From Qaidamihabitans albus (lineage in GTDB: Bacteria; Actinomycetota; Actinomycetes; Mycobacteriales; Pseudonocardiaceae): 64,000 bases of DNA. Below the pieces are notes generated by a model. That model was not told the origin of the DNA. It did no database searches and saw nothing but the letters and a program-made list of their open reading frames with translations. Below, piece by piece: positions 55,654 through 62,349 of this stretch. The translations under genes were made by a program, and so were the position numbers. The stretch covers positions 273,599-337,598 of the forward strand of contig NZ_JAEHOB010000003.1 in NCBI RefSeq assembly GCF_016464705.1, written 5' to 3'. The stretch's first letter is position 1, and every line of letters starts with the position of its first letter.

Positions 55654-56456
55654 CCGAAGCCCGGTTGAAGGCCGACGGGATCCGGCTCGGCTACGGCGAG
55701 CGGGTCGTGGTCGACGATCTCGACCTCGACGTGCTCGACGGGTCCGTGACCGTGATCATCGGGCCGAACGGCTGCGGGAAATCCACCCTGCTGCGGGCGC
55801 TCGGGCGGCTGCTGCGCCCACGCGAGGGCGCCGTGCTGCTCGACGGCAAGCGGATCGACAAGCTGGCGACCAGGGAGGTCGCCAAGGTCGTCGGGCTGCT
55901 GCCACAGGCGCCCAGCGCCCCCGAGGGGCTGACCGTGGCCGACCTCGTCTCGCGGGGCAGGCATCCGCACCAGAGCTGGTACCGGCAGTGGTCGGCCGCC
56001 GACGAAGAGGCGGTCACCAGGGCGTTGTCGCTGACCGGAATGGCGGTGCACGCCGAGCGGATCGTCGACGAGCTCTCCGGTGGGCAGCGGCAGCGCGCGT
56101 GGATCTCGATGACGCTCGCGCAGGACACGTCGCTGCTCCTGCTCGACGAGCCGATCACCCACCTGGACCTGGCCCACCAGATCGACGTGCTCGACCTCGT
56201 GCACCGGCTGCACACCGAGCGCGGCACGACCGTGGTGATGGTGCTGCACGACCTGAACCTCGCCGCCCGTTACGCCGACACGCTCGTCGCCATGCGGGAG
56301 GGCCGGATCGTGGCCAGGGGCGAGCCGGGGGACGTGCTGTCCGAGCAGTTGCTGTCGGAGGTGTTCGACCTCGACGCCAAGGTCCTGCCCGACCCGGTCG
56401 CGGGCACCCCGCTCGTCGTACCGATCAGCGCGCACCTGCGGCCCGAACCCTCGTGA
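55650..56456 (+). CDS. Siderophore ABC transporter ATPase (FecE/FepC type)
   Basis: A 268-aa ATPase: Walker A GPNGCGKSTLLRALG, Q-loop LLPQAPSAPEGLT, signature LSGGQRQRAWISMTLAQD, Walker B LLLLDEPITHLDLAHQ, H-loop VMVLHDLNLAARYAD. This is the FecE/BtuD-like class. GTG 55650 overlaps the permease stop by 4 nt. The stop (TCG TGA) is read from the left arm of the 44-nt palindrome at 56451. Confidence 0.95.
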   Translation: MTEARLKADGIRLGYGERVVVDDLDLDVLDGSVTVIIGPNGCGKSTLLRALGRLLRPREGAVLLDGKRIDKLATREVAKVVGLLPQAPSAPEGLTVADLVSRGRHPHQSWYRQWSAADEEAVTRALSLTGMAVHAERIVDELSGGQRQRAWISMTLAQDTSLLLLDEPITHLDLAHQIDVLDLVHRLHTERGTTVVMVLHDLNLAARYADTLVAMREGRIVARGEPGDVLSEQLLSEVFDLDAKVLPDPVAGTPLVVPISAHLRPEPS

Positions 56457-56494
56457 GTGCCTACGCGAGTTAGAACTCGCGTGCGCACTCACGA
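56451..56494. repeat. 44-nt intergenic palindrome, copy 7
   Basis: Outer arms TCGTGAGTG/CACTCACGA, core CGAGTT-AG-AACTCG. Between the convergent siderophore ATPase and MpaB-like genes. Provides the last Ser codon and stop of the ATPase. Confidence 0.9.
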
Positions 56495-56498
56495 GTGG

Positions 56499-57347: not shown

Positions 57348-57902
57348 CTACCGGCCCGCGCCCCGCACGAGCATGGTCAGCGCGTCGGCGGCCGGGGTCG
57401 CCGGGGCGGCACCGGTGGCCAGCCTGCGCAGTTGCAGGCCCATGACCAGGGCGACGACCGGACCGGTCAGCCGCTCGGGAGCGTTCACCCCGAGCGTGCG
57501 CAGGATGGTCACCGCCAGCTCGTCGTAGGCGGCGAAGCAGCGGGTGGTGGCGTCGCGCAGCGCGGGATCGCGCCCCGCCTGGAGGAACAGTTCGAGTGAG
57601 GCGATCTCGTCCACGCGCAGCGGCATCCGCTCCAGCACGGCATCGACGGCGACCGCCGCCCGTTCGACGGTCATCTCCCCGGCCCGGTGCTCCTCGGCCA
57701 GCGCGGCCAGCCGCCGGGTCTCGTCCTCCGCGAACAGCAGCATGGCCTGCCGCAACAGCTCGGTCTGGCTGGGGAAGTGGTAGGTCAGCGAGCCGAGTGC
57801 GACACCGGCCTCGGCGCAGATCCGGCGGTTGGTCAGGCCGGCGACGCCCTGCTCGCCGATCACCCGCAGCGCGGCGCGCAGGATCGCCTCACGAGTGTTC
57901 AC
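57348..57902 (-). CDS. TetR-family repressor coupled to an amidase
   Basis: A 184-aa regulator. HTH: VNTREAILRAALRVIGEQG, VAGLTNRRICAEAGVALGSL, TYHFPSQTELL. The helical domain begins AMLLFAEDETRRLAAL. GTG 57902 overlaps the amidase stop by 4 nt, so the two are one unit (amidase first). A perfect 20-bp palindrome lies upstream of the amidase and is the likely operator for this repressor, giving autoregulation. Confidence 0.9.
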   Translation of the reverse strand: MNTREAILRAALRVIGEQGVAGLTNRRICAEAGVALGSLTYHFPSQTELLRQAMLLFAEDETRRLAALAEEHRAGEMTVERAAVAVDAVLERMPLRVDEIASLELFLQAGRDPALRDATTRCFAAYDELAVTILRTLGVNAPERLTGPVVALVMGLQLRRLATGAAPATPAADALTMLVRGAGR

Positions 57903-59275
57903 GGTCGCCGATCGTGCCAGCGTTCGGCCTTCTCCAGTTGCGCGGCCAGCGAGATCAGCAGGCCCTCCGAACCGGCAGGTCCGAGTAGCTGCGCGCCGAG
58001 CGGCAGCCCGTCGTCCGTCGGCCCGGCCGGGACGTTCATCGCGGGCCAGCCGAGCACGTTCCACGGCCACGCGTACGGGCAGGCGGCGATCATCGCCTCG
58101 TCGGTGTGCCAGTTCGACAGCGCGTCGAAGGCGCCGATCCGCGGTGGCGGTGTCGCGGTCGTCGGCGCGAGCAGCACGTCGACCTGCTCGAACACCGCGC
58201 CGACCTGCCGGTGCAGCAGCGGCTCGGCGCGCCGGGCGAGGCTCGCGAGCGGACCGAGCCGGGAGCCGGTGCGCCGGTTGGCGCGGGTGCGCGGATCGAG
58301 CAGGCCGGGTTCCGGAGCGCGGGCGGCCCAGTCGTGCACGCCGGCGAGGGAGCGTGGGAGGAAGTCGAGCCCGATGAGTCCGTAGCGCGGTTCGGCGTGG
58401 TCGACCTCGTGCCCGAGTCCCGCCAGCACGCCCGCGAGCCGCGTCACCGCGGCGTGGACTCGCTCGTCCAGCCGGGTGCGCGTGGCGGTGAACGGGATGC
58501 GGAACGAGAGCCCGACGCGCAGCCGCCCTGGCTCGGTGCGGACGGCGGCCAGGAAGGTGCCGTCCGTGCCGGCGGTGACGTCGAGCAGCAGTGCCGCGTC
58601 GGCGACCGTCCGCGCCAGCGGACCGTGCACGGTCAGCCCGTGGAACAGTTCCGGCTCGGGCGCGGTGGGGATGCGGCCGCGCTGCGTCTTGATGCCGACC
58701 AGGTTGTTCCAGGCGGCGGGTATCCGGACCGACCCGGCGCCGTCCGAGCCGAGCGCGGCGGGCACCAGGCCCGCGGCGACGGCGGCCGCGGAGCCACCGG
58801 AGGAGCCGCCCGGCGAGTAGCCGGTGTGCCACGGGTTGCGCGTGACCCCGAACGCACCGCCCTCGGTGAACGGCCACTGCCCGATCTCCGGGGTGTTGGT
58901 CTTGCCGACGATCACCGCGCCCGCCCGCTTCAGCCGGGCGACAACCTCGGCGTCGGTGTCGCGGACCGGGAAGTCGCCCGCGCAGCCGAACGCTGTGGGC
59001 AGGCCCGCGATGTCGGTGTCGTCCTTGATCGCCACCGGCACCCCGAGCAGCGGCGCGCGCTCACCCGCGGCGAGGCGGCGATCGGCGTCCGCGGCCTCCC
59101 GTTCCGCGTCGGCCGCCCGTACGTGCCGGAAGGCGTTGAGCGTCGGCTGTGTCTCGTCGATCCGCTTCAGTGCGGCGGCGGTGAGTTCGGCCGAGGTGAG
59201 CCGCCCCTCGGTGAGCAGACCGGCCTGCCGGGCCAGGCCGGCGAAGGCGAGATCACTCCCGATGTCGTCGGTCAT
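57899..59275 (-). CDS. Amidase-signature family hydrolase
   Basis: A 458-aa amidase. The catalytic Lys lies in PVAIKDDTDIAGLPTAFG, the Ser-cisSer-Lys triad glycine motif in GYSPGGSSGGSAAAVAAGL, and the Ser nucleophile region in GSDGAGSVRIPAAWNNLVG. Members hydrolyse diverse amides (GatA-like, 6-aminohexanoate-cyclic-dimer hydrolase-like); GatC/GatB are absent. ATG 59275. Followed by its TetR. Confidence 0.93.
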   Translation of the reverse strand: MTDDIGSDLAFAGLARQAGLLTEGRLTSAELTAAALKRIDETQPTLNAFRHVRAADAEREAADADRRLAAGERAPLLGVPVAIKDDTDIAGLPTAFGCAGDFPVRDTDAEVVARLKRAGAVIVGKTNTPEIGQWPFTEGGAFGVTRNPWHTGYSPGGSSGGSAAAVAAGLVPAALGSDGAGSVRIPAAWNNLVGIKTQRGRIPTAPEPELFHGLTVHGPLARTVADAALLLDVTAGTDGTFLAAVRTEPGRLRVGLSFRIPFTATRTRLDERVHAAVTRLAGVLAGLGHEVDHAEPRYGLIGLDFLPRSLAGVHDWAARAPEPGLLDPRTRANRRTGSRLGPLASLARRAEPLLHRQVGAVFEQVDVLLAPTTATPPPRIGAFDALSNWHTDEAMIAACPYAWPWNVLGWPAMNVPAGPTDDGLPLGAQLLGPAGSEGLLISLAAQLEKAERWHDRRP

Positions 59276-59290: not shown

Positions 59291-59310
59291 TCGTTCGTTC
59301 GAACGAACGA
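59291..59310. promoter_or_regulatory. Perfect 20-bp palindrome upstream of the amidase gene
   Basis: TCGTTCGTTCGAACGAACGA, a perfect dyad ending 16 nt upstream of the amidase start (59275). Likely operator for the TetR encoded by the same operon. Confidence 0.8.
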
Positions 59311-60069: not shown

Positions 60070-60840
60070 TTACTTTCGGGTGAAGTCGATCAGGGCGAAC
60101 GCCTGGTCGTCGTGGCGTTTCGAGCGCGGCCAGCGGGCACCGTCCGGGTCGTCGTGCTCGGCGGCCCTGACCGTGTCGAGCACGGCGGCGGCCCCCTTCT
60201 CCCGCGCGAGGCAGAGCACGTCCGGCCAGCCGAGGATCCGGTACTCGTCGACGCCGATCGCGACGCCGTCGGTGGCGAGCAGCACCGCGTCGACGTCCGC
60301 CCGCGGCAGACTCCGGTGCAGGGCGTGCCCGGCGGCGGCCGGGTCGGCCTCGGCCACCCAGAACCCGCCCTCGGCGTTGCGCAGCCTGCTGACGTCGGCG
60401 CGGGTGCGCAACGCTCCGCCCTTGCGCAGCGCCAGCAGCCGGTCGTCGGCGAGTACGTCCATCCTCCCGGACCGGTGGAACACGACGACCGGGCTGTCGG
60501 CGAGCACGAGCGTGTCGATCCGGTGCTCGGTCCAGCGCAGCATCGCCACGGTGCTCGAAGGCGAGTGTCCCGGCCTCAGGTCGTGCTCCGTGGTGACGCC
60601 GGTGATGGCGTCGGCCAGCAGCGCGCTCAGGTCGTCGTCCGGCCGCTCGCGCAGCCGGACGTCGAGCTGCTCGGCCAGCCGTGCCGCGTACCAGCCGCCG
60701 CTGGGCAGGTCGTCGCGGAACTCGGTGGCGCCGTCGAGCAGCACCACGGCATTGCCGGTGGTGACCACCTTGTCCTCGGTGGGGCGAGGCCGGCCGTGCA
60801 CACCGACGCCGGCCTGTTCGGCGATGTCGATCCGGGGCAC
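60070..60840 (-). CDS. PP2C-like phosphatase-fold protein
   Basis: A 256-aa protein with PP2C features: PRPTEDKVVTTGNAVVLLDG (metal Asp), PGHSPSSTVAMLRWTEHRID, LATDGVAIGVDEYRILGW. It may be a metal-dependent Ser/Thr phosphatase, although the usual DGxG is replaced by DGAT and DGVA, so activity is uncertain. GTG 60840. Divergent from the HTH/Clp-N pair with two operators between. Confidence 0.7.
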   Translation of the reverse strand: MPRIDIAEQAGVGVHGRPRPTEDKVVTTGNAVVLLDGATEFRDDLPSGGWYAARLAEQLDVRLRERPDDDLSALLADAITGVTTEHDLRPGHSPSSTVAMLRWTEHRIDTLVLADSPVVVFHRSGRMDVLADDRLLALRKGGALRTRADVSRLRNAEGGFWVAEADPAAAGHALHRSLPRADVDAVLLATDGVAIGVDEYRILGWPDVLCLAREKGAAAVLDTVRAAEHDDPDGARWPRSKRHDDQAFALIDFTRK

Positions 60841-60864
60841 GTCCAGACAGTAGCGCCGAAGTCC

Positions 60865-60909
60865 TGTCAACTGACATTGACACAATGGCACTGTCAACGT
60901 AGATTGACG
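60865..60909. promoter_or_regulatory. Two operators TGTCAA-N6-TTGAC(A/G)
   Basis: TGTCAA-CTGACA-TTGACA (60865-60882) and TGTCAA-CGTAGA-TTGACG (60892-60909) are two dyads with equal 6-nt spacers, 27 bp apart centre to centre, in the gap between the PP2C-like gene and the HTH gene (ATG 60912). The second touches the HTH start. Likely sites for the small HTH protein. Confidence 0.75.
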
Positions 60910-60911
60910 GC

Positions 60912-61121
60912 ATGACAGAGGCAACGGATCTGGCCGCCAGGGCAGGCGACCGCGACCCCCGGGTGGGGCTGCGGGCCGTCGCCGCCCTGTGCCGGCTGCT
61001 GGAACAGCTCGAGGCCGTGCAGGTGCGCAGCGCGCGGACGCACGGCTGGTCATGGCAGGAGATCGCCGACGAGCTCGGGGTCAGCCGTCAGGCGGTACAC
61101 AAGAAGCACGGGAGGCGCTGA
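60912..61121 (+). CDS. Small HTH protein preceding a Clp-N protein
   Basis: A 69-aa DNA-binding protein: VGLRAVAALCRLLEQLEAVQ, then HTH GWSWQEIADELGVSRQAV. The end HKKHGRR is basic. ATG 60912. It overlaps the Clp-N gene by one base. It is consistent with a regulator of this module, binding the two upstream dyads; binding is inferred. Confidence 0.85.
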   Translation: MTEATDLAARAGDRDPRVGLRAVAALCRLLEQLEAVQVRSARTHGWSWQEIADELGVSRQAVHKKHGRR

Positions 61122-61681
61122 TGTTCGAGAGGTTCACCAAGGAGGCCCGGGTCGCCGTGATCGAGGCGCAGGACTGGGCGATCGAGCAGCAGGTCGCCGA
61201 GATCGACGTGCCGCACCTGCTGCTCGCCCTGCTCGGCGCTTCGGACACCGCCGCCGTGCGGTTGCTGGTGGAGTCCGGGCTGTCCATCGACCTGGTCGTC
61301 GAGGAGCTCAACGCGATCCGGCGGCGCGGCGGGCTCAGCGACGCCGACGCCGAGGCACTCGAGCAGCTGGGCATCGACCTGGAGCGGGTCGTGGAGCGCG
61401 TCGAGCAGGCGCACGGCGAGTACGCGCTCGCCGACCGTGCCGAGGGGTCGCGGCGCGGCCGGTTCGCGGGTCGTCAGCACCGGCCGTTCACGCACGGTGC
61501 CAAGCGCGTGCTGGAGCATTCGTTGCGGGAGGCGCAGGACCTCGGCGACAAGGACATCGGAACCGAGCACATCCTGCTGGCCGTGGTCACGCAGCCAGGC
61601 CCCACCGCCGACATGCTGGCCACCTACGGCATCGACCACGTGACCCTCCGCCGGGCCCTCACCCGCCGCCGCGCCTCGTGA
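61121..61681 (+). CDS. Clp amino-terminal (ClpN) domain protein
   Basis: A 186-aa protein of two ClpN repeats: MFERFTKEARVAVIEAQDWA, VAEIDVPHLLLALLGASDTA and HGAKRVLEHSLREAQDLGDK, IGTEHILLAVVTQPGPTADM. These are the substrate/adaptor-binding N-domains of ClpC, without the AAA+ modules, as in free ClpN proteins of actinobacteria that regulate or mimic ClpC. ATG 61121. The final Ser and TGA come from the 44-nt palindrome. Confidence 0.92.
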   Translation: MFERFTKEARVAVIEAQDWAIEQQVAEIDVPHLLLALLGASDTAAVRLLVESGLSIDLVVEELNAIRRRGGLSDADAEALEQLGIDLERVVERVEQAHGEYALADRAEGSRRGRFAGRQHRPFTHGAKRVLEHSLREAQDLGDKDIGTEHILLAVVTQPGPTADMLATYGIDHVTLRRALTRRRAS

Positions 61682-61719
61682 GTGCGCAGACGAGTTAGAA
61701 CTCGTGTGCGCACTCACGA
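61676..61719. repeat. 44-nt intergenic palindrome, copy 8
   Basis: Outer arms TCGTGAGTG/CACTCACGA, core CGAGTT-AG-AACTCG. Between the convergent Clp-N and YczE genes. It supplies stop codons on both strands: Clp-N TGA at 61679-61681 (+) and YczE TGA at 61714-61716 (-). Confidence 0.92.
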
Positions 61720-62349
61720 GCCGGGGCGCTCGTACCGCCACACCACGAAGGGCAGGAAGGCCTGGGTGAGCGGGCCGATGGCGAGCGCGTACAGCACCGT
61801 GCCGAGACCGACCGTGCCGCCGAGCAGCCAGCCGGCGGCGAGCACGGTCACCTCGATCCCGGTGCGCACGAGGCGTACCGACCACCCGGTCCGCGTGGAG
61901 AGCCCGGTCATCAGGCCGTCGCGCGGGCCGGGACCGAGCCGGGCGCCCACGTAGGCGGCCGTCGCGAGCCCGTTGAGCACGACGCCGCCCAGCAGCAGCG
62001 GGATCTGCGCGCCGAGGGCGTGCTGGTCGGGCAGCACCAGCCGGACCAGGTCGACGGTCACCGAGATGACGAGCACGTTCAGCACCGTGCCGATGCCCGG
62101 CCGCTGCCGCAGCGGGATCCACAGTGCCAACACCGCGACCGACGAGATGCCGATGACCATGCCGAACGTCAGCCCCGTCCGTTTGGTCACGCCCTCGTGC
62201 AGCACGTCCCAGGGGGAGAGGCCGAGCCCGGCCCTGGTCATCATCGCCAGGCTGGTGCCGTACAGGGCGAGCCCGCCGACTAGTTGCAGCAGCCTGCGGA
62301 CGGGGCTGACGGTGACGGTGACCGGATGGAGTTCGACAGCATGAGCCAC
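61714..62349 (-). CDS. YczE/YitT-family membrane protein
   Basis: A ~211-aa protein with about five helices: LLQLVGGLALYGTSLAMMTR, LTFGMVIGISSVAVLALWIP, VLNVLVISVTVDLVRLVLP, IPLLLGGVVLNGLATAAYVG, TGIEVTVLAAGWLLGGTVGL. The LSPWDVLHEG and GARLGPGPRDGLMTGLS motifs define the YczE family. GTG 62349. Divergent from the MocR gene, a common pair in actinobacteria. The MocR may control its expression. Function unknown; some YczE proteins aid secretion or transport. The stop lies in the palindrome. Confidence 0.88.
   Translation of the reverse strand: MAHAVELHPVTVTVSPVRRLLQLVGGLALYGTSLAMMTRAGLGLSPWDVLHEGVTKRTGLTFGMVIGISSVAVLALWIPLRQRPGIGTVLNVLVISVTVDLVRLVLPDQHALGAQIPLLLGGVVLNGLATAAYVGARLGPGPRDGLMTGLSTRTGWSVRLVRTGIEVTVLAAGWLLGGTVGLGTVLYALAIGPLTQAFLPFVVWRYERPGS

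Follow-up and report, generated by a model that had tools for sequence, protein, structure and literature searches.

An HTH-ClpN gene pair with twin spacer-6 dyads, apparently a two-polypeptide counterpart of mycobacterial ClpC2

Introduction

The closest described system to the locus studied here is mycobacterial ClpC2 (Rv2667; PDB 8ADA, 8AD9; C-terminal domain of the M. smegmatis protein, 8B9O), in which, as in the gene pair below, an HTH-bearing part is combined with a ClpN-like domain. ClpC2 is reported to be an autorepressor with the operator CGTCAAC-n5-GTTGACG, which is repeated in many species and lies 1-2 nt before a probably leaderless ORF; cyclomarin relieves the repression, and cells are protected from cyclomarin by ClpC2 (PMC10030653). 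In the notation used here (GTCAA/TTGAC arms) the published operator has a spacer of 7. In M. tuberculosis, ecumicin and ilamycin are reported to bind ClpC2 yet to trigger no ClpC2 response, and of three compounds tested the cyclomarin-type one alone raised ClpC2 (PMC12913811). Occupancy of the pocket alone may thus not switch such a sensor.

DNA binding by ClpC2 has been assigned to R185 and R189 of the C-terminal domain. DNA binding is described as weaker in the R185A/R189A protein, and clpC2 expression as 2.0-fold higher in the corresponding M. smegmatis mutant; the N-terminal dimer mutant R57A raises it 4.6-fold, more than the arginine pair (PMC10030653). The same report describes little specificity of ClpC1 for the ClpC2 site. 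The terms HTH and helix-turn-helix are absent from its main text; an HTH region in ClpC2 was named in a 2026 paper (PMC13284704), so the HTH itself was already on record. Reviews name ClpC3 of M. smegmatis as another small Clp scavenger, reported to be raised by ClpC1-binding antibiotics (PMC10864484, PMC10746685). The Streptomyces protein called 'ClpC2' is a Clp-ATPase and distinct from mycobacterial ClpC2 (PMC9765437).

Here we describe a two-gene form of this design in a 64 kb stretch of Qaidamihabitans albus DNA, referred to as the window.

Results

The 69-aa HTH gene, a predicted autorepressor, occupies 60912-61121 on the forward strand, and its product scores over the Pfam cut-offs for HTH_23 and HTH_11. 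It is followed on the same strand by a free ClpN gene (61121-61681; 186 aa; Pfam Clp_N, E=3.6e-22), whose product is a predicted ligand sensor or sponge. The stop codon of the first and the start codon of the second share one base within TGATG at 61119-61123; this overlap and the Pfam matches bear out the original prediction of an HTH protein coupled to a free ClpN protein. The AlphaFold model of the HTH protein (mean pLDDT 93) has helices at residues 3-10, 16-43, 48-55 and 59-66, and a Foldseek search of the PDB with it gave no significant match. Clp_N is the only Pfam family over cut-off in the 186-aa protein, which lacks the AAA+ modules of the Clp ATPases ClpC, ClpA and ClpB. The genome holds five ClpN loci and one HTH match, and a fused HTH-ClpN gene of the one-chain ClpC2 kind was not found among them. 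A second free ClpN gene of the same genome (G000:C61, loci L005 and L009) is a ClpC1-like 230-aa frame with a C-terminal extension, with neither HTH nor dyad at its locus.

Two other palindromes lie near the pair. A 46-nt near-perfect palindrome, CTCGTGAGTG...CACTCACGAG, at 61675-61720 spans the ClpN stop codon, with a further copy at 56450-56495. Counts of its outer arms at 20-40 nt from each other are 279 in the genome (reversed control, 0), 94 in a same-genus genome, 49 in one other genus and 0-6 in 28 other genomes. The inner stems differ among the copies listed, often with matching changes, and the element resembles a REP or bidirectional terminator family. A perfect 20-nt palindrome, TCGTTCGTTCGAACGAACGA, at 59291-59310 is a likely TetR operator; it lies just 5' of an amidase-like ORF (57899-59275, reverse strand) that precedes a TetR-like ORF (both named by eye from translations).

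The original prediction placed two TGTCAA-N6-TTGAC dyads in the divergent promoter, and both are present: dyad 1 at 60865-60882 (TGTCAA-N6-TTGACA, TGTCAACTGACATTGACA), conserved in position and spacer, and dyad 2 at 60892-60909 (TGTCAA-N6-TTGACG, TGTCAACGTAGATTGACG), 27 nt from dyad 1 and separated by 2 nt from the HTH ATG at 60912. The 64 kb window has no further GTCAA-N6-TTGAC dyad. When 60801-60911 was shuffled by mononucleotide 100,000 times, one dyad arose in 10 shuffles and two dyads in none. A scan of the 6.5 Mb genome for YGTCAA-N6/7-TTGAC returned both dyads and one N7 site on another contig, with no HTH ORF within the surrounding 2.4 kb (reversed-pattern control: two forward matches and one reverse). 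Since the other exact site has a spacer of 7, the exact spacer-6 dyad is private to the HTH-clpN promoter. The original prediction had proposed a check for such dyads at clp or stress genes; none of the four other ClpN loci carries the exact dyad, and with the exact spacer-6 YGTCAA/TTGAC dyad nowhere else in the genome the suggested regulon is unsupported.

The dyads coincide with the predicted promoter. The right arm of dyad 1 forms the predicted -35 box, TTGACA (60877-60882, forward strand), 17 nt before the predicted -10 box, TAGATT (60900-60905, forward strand), which lies inside dyad 2. Of 110 promoters (one locus present twice), 102 allowed an alignment of two exact dyads. At the columns where the -10 box starts, the core of dyad 2 has T in 97/102 and A in 99/102, and dyad 1 has no clear preference at the corresponding columns in the 102 promoters. 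The right arm of dyad 1 reads TTGAC followed mostly by A or G, 17 or 18 nt before the -10 box, a spacing maintained by the 27-28 nt between the dyads. The start codon lies about 6 nt past the predicted -10 box, which makes a leaderless hth-clpN transcript probable. Occupancy of both dyads by a protein would mask the -35 and the -10 box alike. As at clpC2, a twin operator lies 1-2 nt before the start and overlaps the predicted -35 and -10 boxes, with a spacer of 6 and not 7.

Conservation of the pair was followed in several sets of genomes. Of 60 genomes (the window's own included), 49 had a match to the HTH protein at E up to 0.001, and a ClpN-type ORF lay directly 3' of the HTH in all 30 loci retrieved (window and relatives), most of them with twin dyads. 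The same adjacency was found in 80/80 named loci, the best 80 of at least 565 (69 Streptomyces, 10 Amycolatopsis, 1 Embleya; one locus cut by a contig end), and in most of these 80 pairs the HTH and ClpN genes share 1 or 4 bases. In a draw across the phylum the HTH matched at E up to 1e-12 in 50 of 296 genomes; the best matches were made into loci, and ClpN follows the HTH in 27 of 27 new ones. The profile used for these adjacency counts was built from 13 of the first 30 loci. Locus L105 is the same as L014; it was dropped from the 136 promoters below and is counted twice in the named-locus adjacency, the PP2C neighbour and the 102/110 alignment counts. The locus counts are not independent events, because many Streptomyces loci are closely related.

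Among 136 distinct promoters of HTH-ClpN pairs, 123 carry at least two exact dyads, 10 carry one and three carry none; two of these three (L029 and L035) retain looser dyads. With spacers of 4-10 allowed, all 257 exact dyads in these promoters have a spacer of 6, and the dyad-to-dyad distance is 27 or 28 nt in 122/124. The dyads are thus conserved in relatives, and the position and conservation of the dyads strongly support the proposed autoregulation. At the third (L039, ClpN ORF of 319 aa) the arms are AGCAA/TTGCT-like by eye rather than GTCAA/TTGAC, with a nearly unchanged recognition helix, a possible change of operator specificity. The HTH had no match at E up to 0.01 in phage records and matched seven plasmid records. 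A plasmid of Agarilytica rhodophyticola, which is not an actinobacterium, carries a 46% identical HTH homologue (NZ_CP021745.1, 51488-51676).

The divergent neighbour, a PP2C-like gene at 60070-60840 on the reverse strand with a probable GTG start at 60840, matches Pfam PP2C_2 (E=6.3e-06; 26.3 bits against a curated cut-off of 24). A 327-aa ORF starting at 61053 is unlikely as such to be the PP2C gene; relatives point, by eye, to the GTG at 60840. The gene adjoins 13 of 30 pairs (window included), and all 13 belong to the window's own family, which makes up 19 of the 30. In the best 80 of at least 565 named loci it adjoins 10/10 Amycolatopsis and 0/70 Streptomyces/Embleya pairs; Amycolatopsis sacchari was placed in the window's own family because L014 and L105 are one locus. 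PP2C is thus a family-level neighbour of the HTH-ClpN pair and not core to it, at variance with the original prediction, which had counted it in the module. A weak candidate -10 box of the PP2C gene, TACTGT (60847-60852, reverse strand, by eye), has dyad 1 in its upstream region, and in 23 loci viewed by eye no more than about 60 nt often separate the PP2C start from dyad 1, and a TAnnnT-like box sometimes precedes that start. Faint as these signs are, co-repression of the divergent PP2C gene is possible.

The fused form was sought with a query stretch of the M. smegmatis ClpC2 C-terminal domain. Of 298 genomes drawn from the order, 297 had matches; many of these matches were ClpC1 and many lay in frames of fused size, and the best were made into loci. 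All 25 fused loci match the HTH profile at about residues 37-81, and all 48 of their dyads have a spacer of 7. Twenty further stretches gave 19 fused loci with spacer 7 and one ClpN ORF without HTH or dyad (L187). With L047, L054 and L078 the fused set comprises 47 loci, in which the whole stretch was scanned, beyond the promoter. Their 94 dyads have a spacer of 7 in 89 cases, 8 in four (L047, L054) and 4 in one (L177), and 46 of the 47 loci have two dyads with a spacer of 7 or 8. Both forms occur together in seven genomes (G009, G013, G016, G025, G026, G047, G049), with spacer 6 at the split pair and spacer 7 at the fused gene; G039 has spacers 6 and 8, and G059 inexact 6 and 7. The split pair therefore does not in general substitute for a ClpC2 that was lost.

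Along a tree of 75 HTH sequences, 4 changes of spacer were counted; with shuffled labels the mean was 25. As the tree is built on a short alignment and follows kinship, it shows lineage-fixed spacers and not a tested code. All 21 aligned split HTH proteins have His 63 of the recognition helix, which most proteins at spacer 7 lack; no recognition code is claimed for it, since L071 (spacer 7) has the His too.

The part of these proteins that reads the DNA was considered next to the published assignment. The window HTH is 45% identical over 51 positions to the N-terminal part of the fused ClpC2-type protein L078, through the recognition helix. The ClpC2 crystal fragments are reported to cover residues 4-72 (N-terminal) and to start at 94 (C-terminal) (PMC10030653). 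The HTH profile match to 8ADA ends at residue 72, just before the predicted recognition helix; as the C-terminal fragment begins at 94, this helix is in neither fragment.

The operator travels with the HTH. There were 36 weak HTH matches (from E=2.9e-9 up), of which 35 were retrieved, and 15 of these 35 weaker relatives have an exact dyad no more than 350 nt upstream, three of them fused and 12 without a ClpN ORF. HTH relatives without ClpN thus have a dyad within 350 nt upstream in 12 of 32 cases and none in 20 (shuffle expectation for 35 loci, 0.0). The dyads of the 12 (L046, L050, L052, L056, L057, L058, L061, L067, L069, L071, L072, L075) have GTCAA/TTGAC arms with spacers of 6 or 7, and these proteins form a wider operator-sharing regulator family. 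At the five ClpN loci without an HTH (four in this genome and L187) no dyad was found anywhere within 2-3 kb.

The model of the free ClpN protein (mean pLDDT 90) has its best structural matches in ClpC1 N-terminal domains (NTD; E about 2e-9), followed by ClpC2 C-terminal domains (3e-7); its sequence scores 59.9 bits against the ClpC1 NTD and 38.8-46.8 bits against ClpC2 C-terminal domains. Because the ClpC1 NTD scores higher, ClpN need not share the ligands of ClpC2 or descend from it. The cyclomarin-pocket Phe pair of ClpC2 (F96, F172) is present as F2 and F123, and its two residues are retained in 76/77 and 74/77 split ClpN proteins. R185 of ClpC2 corresponds to R136 and is also present in the ClpC1 of this genome; the R189 position is D140, and in the 77 split ClpN proteins it is A or G in 64 and R in five. 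Free ClpN is predicted to bind ClpC1 ligands, and the earlier suggestion that the module alters ClpC activity is plausible by analogy with ClpC2. ClpC3 of M. smegmatis may itself be such a free ClpN.

Window ClpN shares the fold and the ligand-pocket Phe pair of the ClpC1 NTD; it differs from ClpC1 in having no ATPase modules, in an extra helix pair and a longer linker, with more than 40 additional residues between the two Phe, and in being encoded with a repressor. A conserved docking insert was considered and rejected: the extra helix pair is present, but the D..AL..LGI stretch matches a ClpC1 element. For this reason, and because this segment of ClpN is no more conserved than the rest, no HTH-ClpN interface is claimed.

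Discussion

The split pair is apparently a two-polypeptide counterpart of ClpC2, a relation absent from the original prediction, built of ordinary parts in an apparently undescribed two-chain variant; no description of the two-gene form was found in the literature searched (titles and abstract openings, with few subscription journals and no supplements). Common to ClpC2 and the pair are twin GTCAA/TTGAC dyads over the -35 and -10 boxes, a start codon 1-2 nt on, a probably leaderless transcript and the Phe pair. They differ in that the pair has two polypeptides in place of one chain and a spacer of 6 in place of 7, and its ClpN in the window is nearer the ClpC1 NTD, has more than 40 additional residues between the two Phe and lacks R189. 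Gene architecture, operator conservation, promoter geometry and the travelling of the operator with the HTH are established at the level of sequence.

These features probably reflect a mechanism in which the HTH protein autorepresses hth-clpN and ClpN is a sensor and decoy for ClpC1 ligands that releases the repression. A dimer of the 69-aa HTH protein would bind both N6 dyads and cover the -35 and -10 boxes, repressing its own leaderless operon and perhaps, in the family of the window, the divergent PP2C gene as well. The overlapping start would keep ClpN made in step with the HTH protein. ClpN, with its ClpC1-type pocket, would sense and sequester ClpC1 ligands, either damaged proteins or some peptide antibiotics; a bound ligand would change the contact with the HTH, repression would fall, and more ClpN would shield ClpC1. 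We infer the DNA binding itself, the dimerisation, the HTH-ClpN contact, the ligand binding and the derepression.

A rather unlikely alternative is a simple autorepressor that ignores ClpN, with ClpN as cargo, a competitor or adaptor of ClpC1, and the inducing signal acting elsewhere. Identity to the window is 52-94% for 20 HTH rows and 35-64% for 12 ClpN rows, the rows coming from overlapping but different sets; a more conserved HTH would be expected if ClpN need not fit it closely, and the dyad is also present with HTH proteins that lack ClpN. A working contact is favoured, however, by the adjacency of the genes in every pair examined, mostly with overlap, and by the existence of fused HTH-ClpN proteins. 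It is unlikely that ClpN is needed for repression, the HTH alone binding weakly and ClpN contributing to the contact with DNA in the way reported for the ClpC2 C-terminal domain. The weaker DNA binding and 2.0-fold derepression reported for R185A/R189A (PMC10030653) and the retention of R185 as R136 agree with such a role, but the reported effect of R57A is larger at 4.6-fold, R185 also occurs in ClpC1 with its little site specificity (PMC10030653), R189 is D140 in the window and R in just 5 of 77 split ClpN proteins, and the dyad is absent at the five ClpN loci without an HTH. The operator is thus most likely read by the HTH, since the dyad accompanies it and is absent at HTH-less ClpN, R189 is not retained, and R57A reportedly derepresses more than the arginine pair. 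This puts in question the published placing of ClpC2 DNA reading in the ClpN-like domain, which may still modulate DNA affinity, as the R185A/R189A mutant suggests.

It is very improbable that the pair is toxin-antitoxin-like, with the HTH protein as antitoxin and autorepressor and ClpN as its harmful partner. The gene order and overlap would fit, and among solved structures the antitoxin RelI (PDB 9SDC; E=1.1e-5) scores best with the HTH profile; RelI has the same HTH core and is reported to be related to the ClpC2 HTH region (PMC13284704). The partner of RelI is the RelS toxin, and other related HTH proteins are fused to other domains; some HTH relatives without ClpN bear the same dyad arms. 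ClpN domains are not known as toxins or as a toxin fold. The absence of phage matches at E up to 0.01 and the seven plasmid records give little sign of mobility, and the protection from cyclomarin reported for ClpC2 (PMC10030653) also speaks against a harmful partner.

A wider proposal, which we rate as evenly balanced, is that Actinomycetota hold two paralogous sensors of proteostasis or antibiotics with one design, one-chain ClpC2 and two-chain HTH-ClpN, whose separation within one cell would rest on a single base pair of operator spacing (7 against 6). The N-terminal HTH would read the DNA in both, which would make the published assignment of the ClpC2 DNA-reading helix mistaken or partial, and the ligand signal would have to pass from one protein to the other in the two-chain form. 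ClpC1 is an antibiotic target, and ClpC2 is a decoy that blunts one drug class against it. Streptomyces and Amycolatopsis are genera that make many antibiotics, and the two-chain form in them, where DNA reading is naturally separate from ligand binding, raises the question of whether antibiotic makers carry ClpC decoys. It offers a direct test of how such sensors switch, an open mechanistic question, and a simple natural example in which one base pair of operator spacing may set two related repressors apart.
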